A stretch of 64,000 bases of DNA, from the NCBI GenBank assembly GCA_018241725.1, contig JAFEDI010000046.1, positions 123,452 to 187,451 of the forward strand. Direction: 5' to 3'. Below are positions 14,528 through 26,030 of the stretch, piece after piece. Positions within the stretch are counted from its first letter, which is position 1. Each line of letters opens with the position of its first letter. The DNA comes from Pseudomonadota bacterium (lineage in GTDB: Bacteria > Pseudomonadota > Gammaproteobacteria > Burkholderiales > Rhodocyclaceae). The translations under genes were made by a program, and so were the position numbers. The notes beneath the pieces are model-generated. The model ran no database searches. It saw only the letters and a program-made list of their open reading frames with translations, and was not told the DNA's origin.

Positions 14528-15562
14528 TCAGACCACGGCGGGCGGAACAATCTCCTGCAGGCTCCAGCGGGGCCGAACCGCAAAGCGCCCCCCCTCCTCG
14601 CTGCCCTTTTCCCCTGCAGCAAAGCGCAGGGCACCGGCAAATGCGATCATCGCCCCATTGTCTGTGCACAGCTCCAGCTCGGGGTAATACACCCTAGCCT
14701 TCCGCTTTACAGCGGCCGCATCCAGCTGAGCCCGCAACATCTGGTTGGCCCCTACCCCGCCAGCCACTACCAGTTGCTTCAGGCCAGTATGGCGCAGGGC
14801 GGCCATCGACTTGGCGACCAGAACTTCCACCGCCGCAGCCTGGAACTCCGCCGCCAGATCAGCCTTATCCTCCTCACGGAAATCCGGCGCCGTTGCCGCC
14901 GTCAACACCGCCGTTTTCAGTCCACTGAAACTGAAATCGAAATCCTTGCTGTGCAACATGGGACGCGGCAGCTTGAAACGACCGGGCGTCCCCTGCAGCG
15001 CCAGCTTCGCAAGCGCCGGCCCGCCGGGATAGCCCAGGCCGATGAGCTTGGCGGTCTTATCGAAGGCCTCCCCCGCCGCATCGTCAACAGTCTCGCCGAG
15101 AAGCACGTAGTCGCCAACGCCGGCCACCCGCATCAACTGCGTGTGCCCACCGGAAACCAGCAGAGCGATGAACGGAAAGGTGGGCGGATCAGCTGACAGC
15201 AGCGGCGACAGCAAATGCCCTTCCAGGTGATGCACAGGCAGAACAGGCACATCCAGCGCCACCCCCAGGGCCTCAGCGACACTCGCACCGACCAGCAACG
15301 CGCCAGCCAGCCCCGGACCGGCCGTGTAGGCAATCGCGTCGATATCGCCCATGCCCAACCCCGTCGCATCAAGGGTCTCCCGCAACAGCAGCGGCAGGCG
15401 CCGGATATGGTCGCGGGACGCCAGTTCCGGCACCACGCCGCCATAGGCCGCATGGAGATCGATCTGGGAGTGCAGGCGATGGGCCAGCAACATGCCCTTG
15501 TCGGTGTCGTAGATCGCGACACCCGTCTCGTCGCAGGAGGATTCGATACCCAGAACAAGCAT
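14528..15562 (-). CDS. tsaD: tRNA N6-adenosine threonylcarbamoyltransferase TsaD
   Basis: Transfers threonylcarbamoyl to A37 of ANN-decoding tRNAs. The 344-residue protein starts [14 protein letters not shown], has the iron/zinc ligand motif HLEGH (112-116), LVSGGHTQL (about 140), and the ASKH-fold nucleotide-binding block [13 protein letters not shown]. Length is typical. It is divergent from rpsU, the classical tsaD/rpsU arrangement of proteobacteria, sharing a 131-base intergenic region with the rpsU promoter. Confidence 0.97.
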
Positions 15563-18465: not shown

Positions 18466-20427
<1,962 letters not shown>

Positions 20428-20521: not shown

Positions 20522-20881
20522 GGGCCTGTAGCTCAGTCGGTTAGAGCAGAGGACTCATCAATGGTGACTTTCGCCGGAAACGGCGATTGAAAAATCGGGT
20601 GAATTCAGGGAACCCTGCCCGCATGAGAATGCGAATGGCAACCCTGAGCCAAGCCGGAGCTACAGCTCCGGAAGGTGCAGAGACTAGCGGAGGGATCGAG
20701 TTCCCTTAATGACCGCCACGAGCGCCCGACGCCTGAACACGTCAATGCAGCTGCCGACGTGAAGGCGATGAGATAGTCCAGCGCACGCAAGACGCCCTGC
20801 CCTGCGGCAGATGCATCGGCGACGAAAGTCGCAGTGTGACGAATCCTTTGGTCCAGGGTTCGAGCCCCTGCGGGCCCACCA
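20522..20881 (+). tRNA. tRNA-Ile (CAU) split by a group I intron
   Basis: The exons are 20522-20558 and 20842-20881, together a 77-base tRNA with encoded CCA. The acceptor stem GGGCCTG pairs with CGGGCCC (one T-G wobble), the D arm is GCTC...GAGC, and the anticodon arm GAGGA/TCCTT holds the loop CTCATAA, so the anticodon is CAT. The overall sequence resembles the minor tRNA-Ile2, whose C34 is modified to lysidine by TilS so that it reads AUA, rather than a methionine tRNA. The T arm is GGTTCGAGCCCC-like. The gene is interrupted after T36 by 283 bases with group I intron features. Function requires self-splicing of the precursor. Confidence 0.93.
20559..20841 (+). ncRNA. Group I self-splicing intron in tRNA-Ile(CAU)
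   Basis: A 283-base ribozyme without an encoded protein. Visible parts: P1 formed by exon TCAT with GTGA of the internal guide (U-G at the splice site); P2 TCGCCG-GAAA-CGGCGA (20571-20586), a GAAA tetraloop hairpin; P4 strands TTCAGGG and CCCTGAG; P5 with GCAT-GAGA-ATGC; P6 with CCGGAGCT/AGCTCCGG (20654-20671); P7 strands in GCAGAGACTA (20677-20686) and ATAGTCC (20773-20779); P8 CACGTC/GACGTG; a P9 hairpin GCGAC-GAAA-GTCGC (20819-20832); terminal G at 20841. Layout matches the Azoarcus tRNA-Ile intron (205 bases, subgroup IC3), but this one is longer. Confidence 0.9.
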
Positions 20882-20887
20882 GATCAA

Positions 20888-20914
20888 CCCCAGCCGGAAT
20901 CGGCTGGGGTTTTT
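20888..20914 (+). terminator. Rho-independent terminator of the tRNA
   Basis: Perfect 9-bp stem CCCCAGCCG/CGGCTGGGG with loop GAAT, followed directly by five T, six bases after the tRNA CCA end. Confidence 0.9.
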
Positions 20915-23017: not shown

Positions 23018-24502
23018 TCACAGGGTCTTCAGGTACTCCAGCAGCGCCTCCTTGTCGCCGGCCGGCAAGGTGCTGCCGAACTCGTGGCCCTGGTTGCCGC
23101 CCCCCTTTGCGGCAGTGTCGAAATGCGTGCCGACGCGCCGGGCTTCATCCCCGTCGGTGATGAAACCGACCCGCTGCGGGTCGTATACGTCGTAACCGTT
23201 CCAGAAAATCTTCGGCCGGACCACCGCAGGCTCCAGCAGATCCCGCAGGGTCGGCACGGAACCGTTGTGCAAATAGGGCGCACGCAGCCAGATGCCGTCG
23301 AGGAAGGGGATCTTGTAGCCGTTGAGGTCTTCCTCCACCAGTCCCTTGCGGGGGATACCCATCGCGGTGACGACTTGGTTGGCCTTGATCGCCGCGCCCT
23401 TGTTCCAGGTATCCAGGCGGGCCCGGTCAGTACCGACCTCGTCGAGCGGGATGCGCGTGCCGGTACGTTCGCTGGCGTGACAGCGGGCGCACTGGGCGTC
23501 GAACACCACCTTGCCGGCCGTCGCCCGCCCGGCATCGACCGGGAAGGGGTAGCGCGGCGGCGGCAGGCTGGAGAGGTAATCCTGCAGCCACTGCACCTGC
23601 TTGAGAAAATCCGCCTTGTCGGCCGGCGGCGCGCCCAGCACGCCGAGGGCCGAGTCGATGATCACCGAGCGGACATCGTGGCTGTCGCCCGCGTAGTTGG
23701 GCAACTGGCCGCGCTCGGCGTGGTACTTGCCCAGATTCCAGATCGCCGGGATGTCGCCCGGGCCGAAGGTGTCATCCATCGGCGCGCGGATCATGAAGTA
23801 CTTGGTAAGGTTCATGCTGTCGTCGCGCCCGCGCCCCCACTCAGGAAAGTCGGTTCGGTAGATCCATGCGAACTGCACCTCCCGCTCCAGCAGGCGCTTC
23901 TTGGTGATCGGGATGATCAGAAAACGGTAGAGCAGCTTGTCGATCAGATCCAGCTTGGTCACCCGGTTGATCTCCGCAATCAGGATGTCCGGCTCGAAGC
24001 GCGGATCGGCAGCGCAGTCGATCAACAGGCGGAAGAAGTTCTCGATGTTGAGGGTGTGCCCTGGCCCGCCTACGACGAATACCGGGTTGGAATCTGCACT
24101 CTTGCGATAACTGGTGGTATGGCAGGCGGCGCAGTTGTTGGCAACCCGCGGAAAGCCGATGGTCTTCTTGGTGAAGCCGGCCGGCAGTTCCTGGCCCTGC
24201 TCCCAGGACACCCCGAGGGCCGCGTAACCGCCCGGCACTGTCTGCCCGTCCTGGCGGAATTTCTCCGGGAAAACCCGTGGCAGCACGTAGAAGATCCAGT
24301 ACGGGATCCCCGCGTCGTGCTCGGCACCGATGGAGCCGTACTTGAAGCGCATCTCCGGCGACTCGAAGACCCAGGCCGGCTGCGCTTCCTCTCGGAAACC
24401 CCGGTCCCAGGCGACGTAGGCGCCAGCGATGATCAGCAGCAGCAACACGGACAAGCCGGCGCGAAGCCAGGCGCGGCGGTTTTCACGACGGTCGGCAAGC
24501 AT
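23018..24502 (-). CDS. Dihaem c-type cytochrome, MauG/RoxA-like (1)
   Basis: Periplasmic or membrane-anchored dihaem cytochrome, last gene of a five-gene operon. The ATG at 24502 gives 494 residues: an N-terminal membrane segment (LSVLLLLIIAGAYVAW, about 17-32), CAACH (124-128) and CARCH (338-342), then the C-terminal MauG/CcpA-type motif LRAPYLHNGSVPTLRDLL and a terminal DKEALLEYLKTL. FKYGSIGAEHDAGIPYWI near the N-terminus is shared with the next gene, and recalls RoxA-type rubber oxygenases, though the protein is shorter. Substrate is unknown: a peroxidase, an oxygenase or an electron carrier are all possible. Confidence 0.85.
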   Translation of the reverse strand: MLADRRENRRAWLRAGLSVLLLLIIAGAYVAWDRGFREEAQPAWVFESPEMRFKYGSIGAEHDAGIPYWIFYVLPRVFPEKFRQDGQTVPGGYAALGVSWEQGQELPAGFTKKTIGFPRVANNCAACHTTSYRKSADSNPVFVVGGPGHTLNIENFFRLLIDCAADPRFEPDILIAEINRVTKLDLIDKLLYRFLIIPITKKRLLEREVQFAWIYRTDFPEWGRGRDDSMNLTKYFMIRAPMDDTFGPGDIPAIWNLGKYHAERGQLPNYAGDSHDVRSVIIDSALGVLGAPPADKADFLKQVQWLQDYLSSLPPPRYPFPVDAGRATAGKVVFDAQCARCHASERTGTRIPLDEVGTDRARLDTWNKGAAIKANQVVTAMGIPRKGLVEEDLNGYKIPFLDGIWLRAPYLHNGSVPTLRDLLEPAVVRPKIFWNGYDVYDPQRVGFITDGDEARRVGTHFDTAAKGGGNQGHEFGSTLPAGDKEALLEYLKTL

Positions 24503-24515
24503 GGCAGGCTCCCGT

Positions 24516-26030
24516 TCAGAAGGTCTTGAGGAATTCCAGCAGCGCGGCCTTGTCGGCCTCCGGCAACTCGGTGCCGTAGGCCCGCCCCTCGTGGCCGCCA
24601 TTGCCGTTGCCGGGCTGGCGGGTGTCATAGCGGAAGAACTTGCGGCCATCCATTTCCGGCTGGTCGGACACGAAGCCCACCTTCAGCGGATCGAACACAT
24701 CGTTGCCCCGGTAGAACACCGCCGGCCGCCGGGAAGCCGGCTGCAGCAGGTCGAACAGGCTGGGCACCGAGCCGTTGTGCAGGTAGGGCGCACGCAGCCA
24801 GATGCCGTCCAGCGGCATGTTGGCGTAGCCGTAGGTCTTGTGGAAGGTAGTGAAGCGCCACGGGTAGCCGGCATACAGCGTCGCCTGGTTGACCGCCAGC
24901 GTGTAGGTGTAGGAATCCAGCCGCCGCCGGTCGGTACCGATCTGCGCGATGGGCGTCACATACCCCACCCGCTCACCGCTGAAATCCCGCCCCGACGCTC
25001 CATGACAGCTGGCGCAATATTCCTTGTAGATCGGCGCGCCGCGGGCTGCCAGGGCCCGGTCGATGGGAAACAGCTTGCCGAAGGCCGGCGGCTCGGCACC
25101 GAGAATCCAGTCTTCCACGCGCTTGATGCGCGGCAGGTCGATGGTCGGCGGCGTGGTGCCGGTGCCGAAGGCGGCGCTCTTGTTGCGCTCCGTCATGTCC
25201 GTGTTGTTGCCATCCCAATGCAGTTCCATAGCCCGCGGCTCCCGGCGCGGACGCTGCAGCCAGATCGACGGAAAGTCCGCCGGCGCATCGAACTCCTTCG
25301 GGTCGAGCAGGTGCATCGGGAAGTTGAAGATCACTTTGGCCGAGTTGAAGGTATCCACCCTCCCCGGCCCCCACGGCTGCTGCTCGAATACCCATTCGAA
25401 GCGCCCCTTCAGTGCCAGCACCCGGTCACGCATGATGGCGATGGCCACTGGATAGACCACTTCCCGGTCGAGCAGATCGAGCCCCGCGCCGAGGCGCTGG
25501 ATCTCGGGGATCAGGTATTCCGTGGAGAACTTCGGGTCCGCCGCACACTTGAAGAAGAAGGTCTCGAAGGCCTGCATGTCGAACAGCGCCGCCGGCATGC
25601 CCACCACCAGTTGCGGCGGTGCGTCCGGCGCCTTGCGCACGGTGCTGGTGTGGCACACCGCACAATTCACAAAGACCCGGTAGATACCCTGGTAGCGCCG
25701 CTTGGACGTGCCTACCGGCAGATCGCGGGGGCGCCCGTCCGGCCCCTTCTCGTAGATCATGCCGAGGGATTCATAGCCTTTGCCCGGCAGGTATTGCCCG
25801 CACACCTGTGGCAGCGCGCGCCAGATCCAGTACGGAAACCCCATCTCGTGCTCGCCGCCAGTGGAGCCGTACTTGAAGTGCTCGACGGGATCTGCGTAAT
25901 CCACCGGCGAGTCGCCGCTGAAACGGCCGAGCAGCCACAGGCCCACCGTCGCCGGCAGCAGCACGGTCAGGGCGAACAGGATCATGAAGCGCTGCCGCCA
26001 ACGGCTGGCGGGTGCGACTGGGCTCGTCAT
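24516..26030 (-). CDS. Dihaem c-type cytochrome, MauG/RoxA-like (2)
   Basis: Paralogue of the downstream gene, 13 bases away. The 504-residue product has a membrane segment (MILFALTVLLPATVGLWLLG, about 16-35), CAVCH (123-127) and CASCH (339-343), then LRAPYLHNGSVPSLFDLL and a terminal ADKAALLEFLKTF. It shares with its neighbour HFKYGSTGGEHEMGFPYWIW (about 51-70), the order of haem sites and nearly the same haem spacing (215 against 214 residues), so the pair arose by duplication. The ATG at 26030 follows AGGAGAAGAAC. Function is not established. Confidence 0.85.
   Translation of the reverse strand: MTSPVAPASRWRQRFMILFALTVLLPATVGLWLLGRFSGDSPVDYADPVEHFKYGSTGGEHEMGFPYWIWRALPQVCGQYLPGKGYESLGMIYEKGPDGRPRDLPVGTSKRRYQGIYRVFVNCAVCHTSTVRKAPDAPPQLVVGMPAALFDMQAFETFFFKCAADPKFSTEYLIPEIQRLGAGLDLLDREVVYPVAIAIMRDRVLALKGRFEWVFEQQPWGPGRVDTFNSAKVIFNFPMHLLDPKEFDAPADFPSIWLQRPRREPRAMELHWDGNNTDMTERNKSAAFGTGTTPPTIDLPRIKRVEDWILGAEPPAFGKLFPIDRALAARGAPIYKEYCASCHGASGRDFSGERVGYVTPIAQIGTDRRRLDSYTYTLAVNQATLYAGYPWRFTTFHKTYGYANMPLDGIWLRAPYLHNGSVPSLFDLLQPASRRPAVFYRGNDVFDPLKVGFVSDQPEMDGRKFFRYDTRQPGNGNGGHEGRAYGTELPEADKAALLEFLKTF

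Follow-up and report, generated by a model that had tools for sequence, protein, structure and literature searches.

We report that tRNA-Ile2(CAU), apparently a single-copy gene, is interrupted by a group I intron in a 64-kb stretch (the window, 64,000 nucleotides (nt) in full) of the genome of a Rhodocyclaceae bacterium; the insertion site is known from Azoarcus, and the intron is from a family, marked by the extra helix P7.1, that is shared with phages. In the combined explanation that we favour, with good though incomplete confidence, the intron splices, descends from the P7.1 lineage and sits in a gene that replaced its predecessor as a whole and was probably delivered by an element. In this model, a precursor tRNA-Ile2(CAU) would be transcribed downstream of rpoD; the ribozyme, lying between U36 and A37, would excise itself through two guanosine-initiated transesterifications and join the exons; and the spliced tRNA would be modified by TilS at C34, allowing it to read AUA. 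The resident tRNA-Ile2 would have been replaced by the whole intron-bearing gene, brought by a phage or an integrative element that has since been lost.

The split gene can be read directly from positions 20522–20881 on the plus strand. Its 5′ exon (20522–20558) ends with the anticodon CAU, and its 3′ exon (20842–20881) runs from position 37 to the CCA end. Joining the two without the 283 nt at 20559–20841, the last of which is a G, restores a 77-nt tRNA-Ile2(CAU) that had been split after U36, just as an earlier note on this DNA had described. With introns disallowed, ARAGORN found zero tRNAs across the window; with introns allowed, at the locus covering the gene (L039), it reported one 360-nt split tRNA exactly over 20522–20881, although its exon junction was off by a few bases, and the splice sites given here are those set by tRNA reconstitution. 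The group I covariance search that the earlier note suggested gave a single Rfam match in the window at gathering thresholds, RF00028 at 20547–20791 (53 bits, where the threshold is 50; E 1.3e-10), and RF00028 matched nowhere else in the source genome at E values of up to 10. Exon reconstitution and this match together uphold the note's view of an interrupted tRNA-Ile(CAU), and 20559–20841 is almost certainly a group I intron. No open reading frame (ORF) of 80 or more amino acids lies inside it.

The group I elements P1 to P9, the P7 strands and the terminal G (G20841) named in the earlier note can all be placed, again on the plus strand. In P1, the internal guide sequence GUGA (20564–20567) pairs with exon UCAU (20555–20558), with a U·G pair at the 5′ splice site. 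P2 (20571–20586) is a hairpin with a GAAA loop, and by eye shows two paired changes in a relative from another genus (L150). The 5′ strand of P3 (20595–20601) has its partner at 20723–20729, with 97% of alignment cells paired and both-side changes in six of seven pairs. P4 (20605–20610 with 20642–20647) closes around P5/P5a to span 20605–20647, and P6/P6a follows at 20649–20675, both from the structure model and the analysis of compensatory changes. The 5′ strand of P7, GACUA (20682–20686), faces UAGUC (20774–20778) and is conserved in relatives. Between P7 and P3 stands the P7.1/P7.1a hairpin (20687–20716), in which all nine pairs show both-side changes and 96–98% of cells are paired; it is nested, with UAAUG or GUAAUA on its 3′ side, and a separate P7.2 was not resolved. 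P8 with its extended P8a (20730–20767) and the P9 region (20780–20840, including a GAAA-loop hairpin at 20819–20832) were read from the sequence.

To follow this architecture across genomes we used a model of P3 to P7.1 made from five sequences (R1). Its 103 matches, 81 of them distinct rows, pair in 97.1% of cells and show both-side changes in 34 of 39 pairs, with a covariation of 0.477 against 0.126 in shuffled alignments (0 of 500 shuffles reached the observed values); the model structure guided the alignment, which favours the pairing score, and slid controls pair at 29–47%. The P7.1 helix is thus supported by compensatory changes, and it is absent from the Azoarcus-type introns that we read. 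Among introns of the same family, the P1 guide tracks the host exon (UCAU/GUGA in tRNA-Ile2, CUGU/GCAG in tRNA-Asn and tRNA-Asp, CCUU/GAGG in tRNA-Arg and UUGU/GCAA in tRNA-Tyr); in two viral introns P1 is reduced to three pairs.

RF00028 matched at E 0.01 in 28 of 249 genomes of the bacterial family, seven of them over the cut-off, and in four of the nine genomes of the genus, including the source genome; R1 detected introns in 38 of the 399 genomes searched from the order and in 36 of 398 from the phylum. The same intron occupies the same site in three other species of the genus (L152, L154 and L155), and the differences lie mostly in peripheral elements. P7.1 was read in 10 of 84 aligned R1 matches, with the landmark missing from the listing for five rows. 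Eight of these introns are in tRNA-Ile2 (L039, L150, L152, L154, L155, L212, L213 and L214), one in tRNA-Asn (L215) and one in tRNA-Arg(UCU) (L241); relatives with P7.1 score 61–104 bits with RF00028. In other genera of the family, tRNA-Ile2 has an intron at another site, between U33 and C34 (L164, L167–L172 and L174–L176). Further group I introns lie in tRNA-Thr(GGU) and tRNA-Ser(UGA), isotypes assigned by eye (L153, L177, L157 and L166).

We then compared the gene with its counterparts in the five congeners that lack an RF00028 match. The rpoD gene (18466–20427, plus strand, identified by its Pfam sigma-70 domains) lies next to the tRNA on its upstream side and serves as the marker of the tRNA-Ile2 locus, and all five congeners carry an uninterrupted tRNA-Ile2 downstream of it, four of the GGCGACTCATAATCGC type and one (L181) of the CATG type. 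The window allele, GAGGACTCAT/AATCCTTTGG, is unlike the congener alleles in both exons, and among the differences between alleles are paired substitutions in the anticodon stem (GGCGA/TCGCT against GAGGA/TCCTT). Although rpoD itself is 87–90% identical to that of the congeners by blastn, similarity stops at the stop codon or just past it, and beyond that point blastn recovers nothing except, in four of the five, a 39–45-nt stretch over the 5′ exon; the differences extend to the spacer and the 3′ flank. Because the five congeners hold other alleles at the same rpoD locus, a whole intron-bearing gene probably replaced the resident tRNA-Ile2 of the genus, a reading of the alignments with which the different allele is consistent, without proving it.

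Two further loci bear on this replacement. In L181, from the window's own genus, an upstream partial copy of a genus-like GGGCCCATAG allele (score 13.5) lies beside a different intronless tRNA-Ile2, so displacement of tRNA-Ile2 has left a trace inside the genus. In L150, from another genus, blastn finds only the segment 20507–20881 in common with the window within L150's 3.3 kb, and a decayed tRNA 5′ fragment lies 115 nt upstream of the intron-bearing gene.

The strongest competitor, which we regard as possible but unlikely, is insertion of the intron into the resident tRNA at the RNA level, by reverse splicing, with no replacement of the gene; the exon differences within the genus would then come from ordinary divergence or from recombination at a later time. 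In its favour, any anticodon loop of this kind could be a target of the guide sequence, and no older tRNA fragment was found: a 17-nt piece of the intronless congener allele is absent from the window at up to three mismatches, and a search with that allele in the source genome, the three intron-bearing congeners and genomes G166, G408 and G618 returned whole tRNAs, tRNA-like stretches and exons of intron-bearing genes, with no separate fragment (the rows were not checked singly). Reverse splicing sits poorly, however, with exons that differ in both halves, paired anticodon-stem changes included, next to an rpoD of such high identity, and with a spacer and 3′ flank that differ as well.

Replacement of the whole gene has a parallel in other genomes, in which an uninterrupted copy of the 5′ part of a tRNA lies upstream of 13 of 78 intron-bearing tRNAs (12 of 77 distinct ones), starting 115–410 nt away. 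These fragments score at least 17.5; the remaining loci reach at most 12 and shuffled sequences 10.5. The count covers 78 of 84 loci, as six without an ARAGORN frame were dropped: L158, L161 and L162 showed one half only, and for L231, L238 and L239 just 130 nt around the 5′ exon were examined. L116 had been included on account of a fragment already noticed; as the survey supplied its identical twin L225, one of the two was dropped. L143 and L145, which also have fragments, stand outside the count. Among 101 intronless controls, one scored 15 or more and one 13.5 (L114 and L181), each beside a different intronless tRNA-Ile2 allele; 63 controls had the anticodon CAU and the rest were mostly tRNAs of the source genome, with no matching by isotype or taxon. 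Fisher tests gave P values of 0.0002 (12/77 against 1/101) and 0.001 (against 2/101), in which shared ancestry is ignored. Separately, in L232 an intron-bearing tRNA-Ile2 is preceded by a tandem pair of 5′ fragments that differ from each other, a layout that successive integrations could have left. In L143, L145 and L116 (Gulbenkiania mobilis), the 5′ half of tRNA-Ile2 is repeated 208–233 nt upstream of the intron-bearing copy, and the spacers contain short direct repeats that resemble integrase arm sites.

We sought the 3′ part of the tRNA in eight genomes and found it in five, where it bounds an island. The 3′ part lies about 44 kb away in G590 (tRNA-Leu; L278–L280), with an integrase match (PF00589) about 0.8 kb from it; about 26 kb away in G171 (tRNA-Ile2; L266–L267), with a PF00589 match inside the island; about 33 kb away in G699 (tRNA-Arg; L276–L277), with a partial, weak PF00589 match about 1.3 kb from it; about 15 kb away in G960 (tRNA-Arg; L268), with a PF00589 match about 1.0 kb past the intron core; and about 8.5 kb away in G903 (tRNA-Ile2; L271), with a PF00589 match about 1.8 kb past the intron core. 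In all five islands, the joined 5′ and 3′ parts form an intact intronless tRNA with the same anticodon as the island's intron-bearing tRNA, which lies near the left end. No 3′ part was found in the 15–20 kb fetched for G289, G006 and G630. All 12 genomes searched hold 3–16 integrase matches, none of them near the fragment in G551, G630 and G166. With RF00028, the island introns L259 and L241 score 61 and 73 bits, L174 and L260 fall short of the gathering score with 33 and 31 bits, and L216 goes unmatched at E 0.01; the last three rest on R1 (50, 40 and 59 bits for L174, L260 and L216) and on tRNA reconstitution. The intron of the G699 island tRNA is of the window's P7.1 family.

These five islands are laid out as in tRNA-dependent lysogeny (PMC10865867), except that the tRNA supplied contains an intron. 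In the available text of PMC10865867, a table names tRNA-Ile2-CAT among the targets, and the word 'intron' occurs once, in a reference title. Set against that system, the islands' supplied tRNA carries a group I intron, and the window has no attachment fragments. In the mechanism that we propose, a phage or island would destroy the host tRNA on integration and supply an intron-split tRNA of the same isotype, which would become the sole host copy and could outlive the element; in some elements the intron would also hide the attachment core of the carried tRNA copy. More generally, we judge the case evenly poised that group I introns without ORFs reach essential bacterial tRNA genes by travelling inside replacement tRNAs, with the window gene as a survivor and some of the introns concealing an attachment core.

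Concealment might also be why the intron is kept, if an anticodon-loop attachment site that it interrupts cannot be hit by an integrase, an explanation that we find doubtful. In the G590 tRNA-Leu and the G171 tRNA-Ile2, the boundary core lies in the anticodon loop with the intron inside it, and PMC4033280 credits the site-hiding idea to Randau and Soll (2008) for archaeal split tRNAs. By contrast, of the four islands with a clear core (all but G699), G960 and G903 have theirs in the T loop, a loop that the intron does not interrupt; the two controls L114 and L181 show a fragment beside an intronless foreign allele, and the window itself bears no integration trace. As a general rule, an intron that always hides the integrase site was rejected, because two of the five islands use the T loop.

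Consistent with replacement by an element-borne gene, relatives of the window gene occur in phages. Klebsiella phages match the window tRNA plus intron at 74–77% identity over 149–166 nt, running from the tRNA into the intron, and the Klebsiella jumbo phage Muenster (MT708547.1, L402 1481–1791) has an unannotated tRNA-Ile2 split after CAU by a P7.1 intron (RF00028, 104 bits) that adjoins annotated tRNAs. In viral contigs, the exact P7.1 pattern gave no match and a looser one gave 101, of which 80 were examined; ARAGORN found a split tRNA in eight of those 80. An Azoarcus-like core pattern gave at least 120 stretches in viral contigs, and ARAGORN found a split tRNA in 51 of the 80 represented by L282–L361. 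A plasmid search returned eight records, each matching just the 37-nt 5′ exon. In one viral contig (L423, 3127–3693, minus strand), a P7.1 intron overlaps the end of a match to the transfer-messenger RNA (tmRNA) gene.

The earlier note had assigned the intron to the Azoarcus type. The Azoarcus sp. BH72 tRNA-Ile(CAU) intron (IC3, 205 nt) shares with that of the window the tRNA, the splice site, the lack of an ORF and the group I core, and in both kinds a U·G pair marks the 5′ splice site and P2 and P9 have GAAA loops. Introns of 204–208 nt occupy the same U36/A37 site of tRNA-Ile2 in L116, L151, L156 and L158–L162, mostly in the same bacterial family, and the 205-nt intron of L158 is presumably that of Azoarcus itself. 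The note's estimate that the window intron is about 80 bases longer holds (283 against 205 nt in L158), and one could therefore picture an Azoarcus-type intron, inherited with or transferred from the 205-nt carriers and enlarged by about 80 nt. We consider this very improbable. P7.1 was absent by reading from the 204–208-nt introns, including L158, and it is present in an intron in the same tRNA of a phage; P8 and P9 are longer in the window. The sequence CCUAAG/UAUGG is the tetraloop receptor in P5 and P8 of Azoarcus-type introns; by reading, it is present in L158, absent from the window P5 and not seen in the window P8.

Core trees separate the two kinds as well. A first tree of 165 of 177 sequences, which contained the first bases of P7.1 and in which viral rows were labelled by locus, placed 89 of the 91 rows labelled as P7.1, and none of the 74 others, in one clade (support 0.996). 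When the tree was repeated with rows labelled one by one, cutting the core before the P7 motif grouped 86 of 86 P7.1 rows and 0 of 77 others (163 sequences, support 0.88), and cutting it inside P7 grouped 87 of 87 and 0 of 77 (164 sequences, support 0.66). In all three trees the nearest intron outside the genus is that of L150, at a tree distance of 0.4, against 3.7–5.1 for L158; next, in varying order, come the bacterial L213 and L212, the viral L423, L443, L441 and L413, and phage Muenster. The Azoarcus-type assignment was therefore rejected on P7.1, the missing P5 receptor of L158 and the trees: the gene and the splice site are the same, and the lineage is another. The window intron very probably belongs to a P7.1-bearing family common to bacterial tRNAs and phages, which shows one splice site occupied by two different group I lineages.

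Several observations weigh against a replacement tRNA of phage-shared lineage. No phage record covers 80% of the query of tRNA plus intron. The viral rows in the trees were fetched by the P7.1 pattern and make up most of the P7.1 clade, so the tree test was not blind; the core behind the trees is short, the split has a support of anything from 0.66 to 0.996, and the order of relatives outside the genus shifts after L150, with L213 and L212 ahead of the viral rows in two trees. At the thresholds used, no fragment of either allele was found near the gene or in the source genome, and the left and right tRNA fragments that are the hallmark of tRNA-dependent integration, present on the five islands elsewhere, were found in neither the window nor the source genome. 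No integrase was among the 10 neighbouring window proteins scanned, and neither the rest of the window nor the source genome was searched for integrases. Homologous recombination with relatives could also bring in foreign-looking exons. For the window gene in particular, an element-borne route is suggested by the decayed fragment in L150, the intron family and the replaced allele, and we see its chances as roughly equal either way; the arrangement itself is seen in other genomes.

Given established group I chemistry, the window intron should splice, and splicing should be essential because no other tRNA-Ile2 was found in the draft (5.93 Mb, 151 contigs). ARAGORN, run on stretches covering all 67 of the draft's tRNA matches (65 over the cut-off), listed neither a second tRNA-Ile2 nor a tRNA-Ile(UAU); the four CAU-bearing loci (judged from three sequences) read as elongator and initiator tRNA-Met. 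As tRNA-Ile(GAU) and tRNA-Ala(UGC) are likewise unlisted, the draft lacks some genes, and a second tRNA-Ile2 could sit in a gap. The source genome retains tilS, which encodes the lysidine enzyme for tRNA-Ile2 (158 bits). The demand for AUA decoding looks low, with one AUA among 3,252 codons in nine checked window genes. The earlier note's view that splicing would be essential, tRNA-Ile2 normally being the only AUA-reading tRNA, thus stands as far as the draft reaches, tempered by that low demand. That the intron is dead, the tRNA a pseudogene and AUA read otherwise is scarcely credible despite the rarity of AUA, because the two exons are both intact, four species retain the intron with mostly peripheral changes, no alternative tRNA is listed and tilS is kept.

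Among known systems, phage IA2 introns, exemplified by Pf-WMP3 (PMC3428280), resemble the window intron in having an extra helix between P7 and P3, and are assigned there by P7.1 and P7.2 linked by GUA; the window intron differs in lying in a cellular tRNA and lacking a homing endonuclease, and Pf-WMP3 is set beside it here by description only. In an archaeal tRNA-Thr disrupted by a mobile element, a recombinase gene separates a 5′ tRNA fragment from the intron-bearing tRNA downstream of it, and a comparable route was proposed for archaeal introns (PMC3293823); there the introns are archaeal tRNA introns and the spacing is 1.8 kb, whereas here they are bacterial group I introns with fragments starting 115–410 nt upstream. 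Bacterial tmRNA introns also interrupt an essential small RNA, with few homing endonucleases and some of these in the P7.1 region (PMC11915505); those introns lie in the T loop of tmRNA, whereas that of the window is in the anticodon loop of tRNA-Ile2. Of the viral introns close to that of the window, one (L423) lies at a tmRNA gene. According to a 2014 review, the phage introns observed by then were all in protein-coding genes, and there was little evidence for bacterial introns moving horizontally between species (PMC3984707). Among the open-licence matches listed, titles and openings of abstracts contained no description of intron-bearing replacement tRNAs.

Around the split gene, a terminator-like hairpin followed by a T tract lies at 20886–20911 (plus strand; 1 found against 0.6 expected by chance, weak by itself), and a promoter scan found none. 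The window proteins scanned upstream of the tRNA are TsaD, YqeY, DnaG and RpoD; those downstream are an unassigned ORF, DgkA, a globin, a redoxin and two RoxA-like cytochromes, whose genes are neighbours at 23018–26030. The tsaD gene (14528–15562) lies a few genes upstream of the split tRNA; its product helps to modify A37, which is the first base of the 3′ exon.

Taken together, a bacterium and a Klebsiella phage have one and the same tRNA interrupted at one site by a single intron family, and islands in other genomes carry intron-bearing tRNAs between the halves of the tRNA that they split; the two findings open the spread of tRNA introns without endonucleases to direct test. Intron tRNAs borne by elements, as a wider pattern, are a more interesting result than the window gene itself, and an isotype-matched survey of them is needed. 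The window gene, for its part, hints at how self-splicing introns may reach essential genes.
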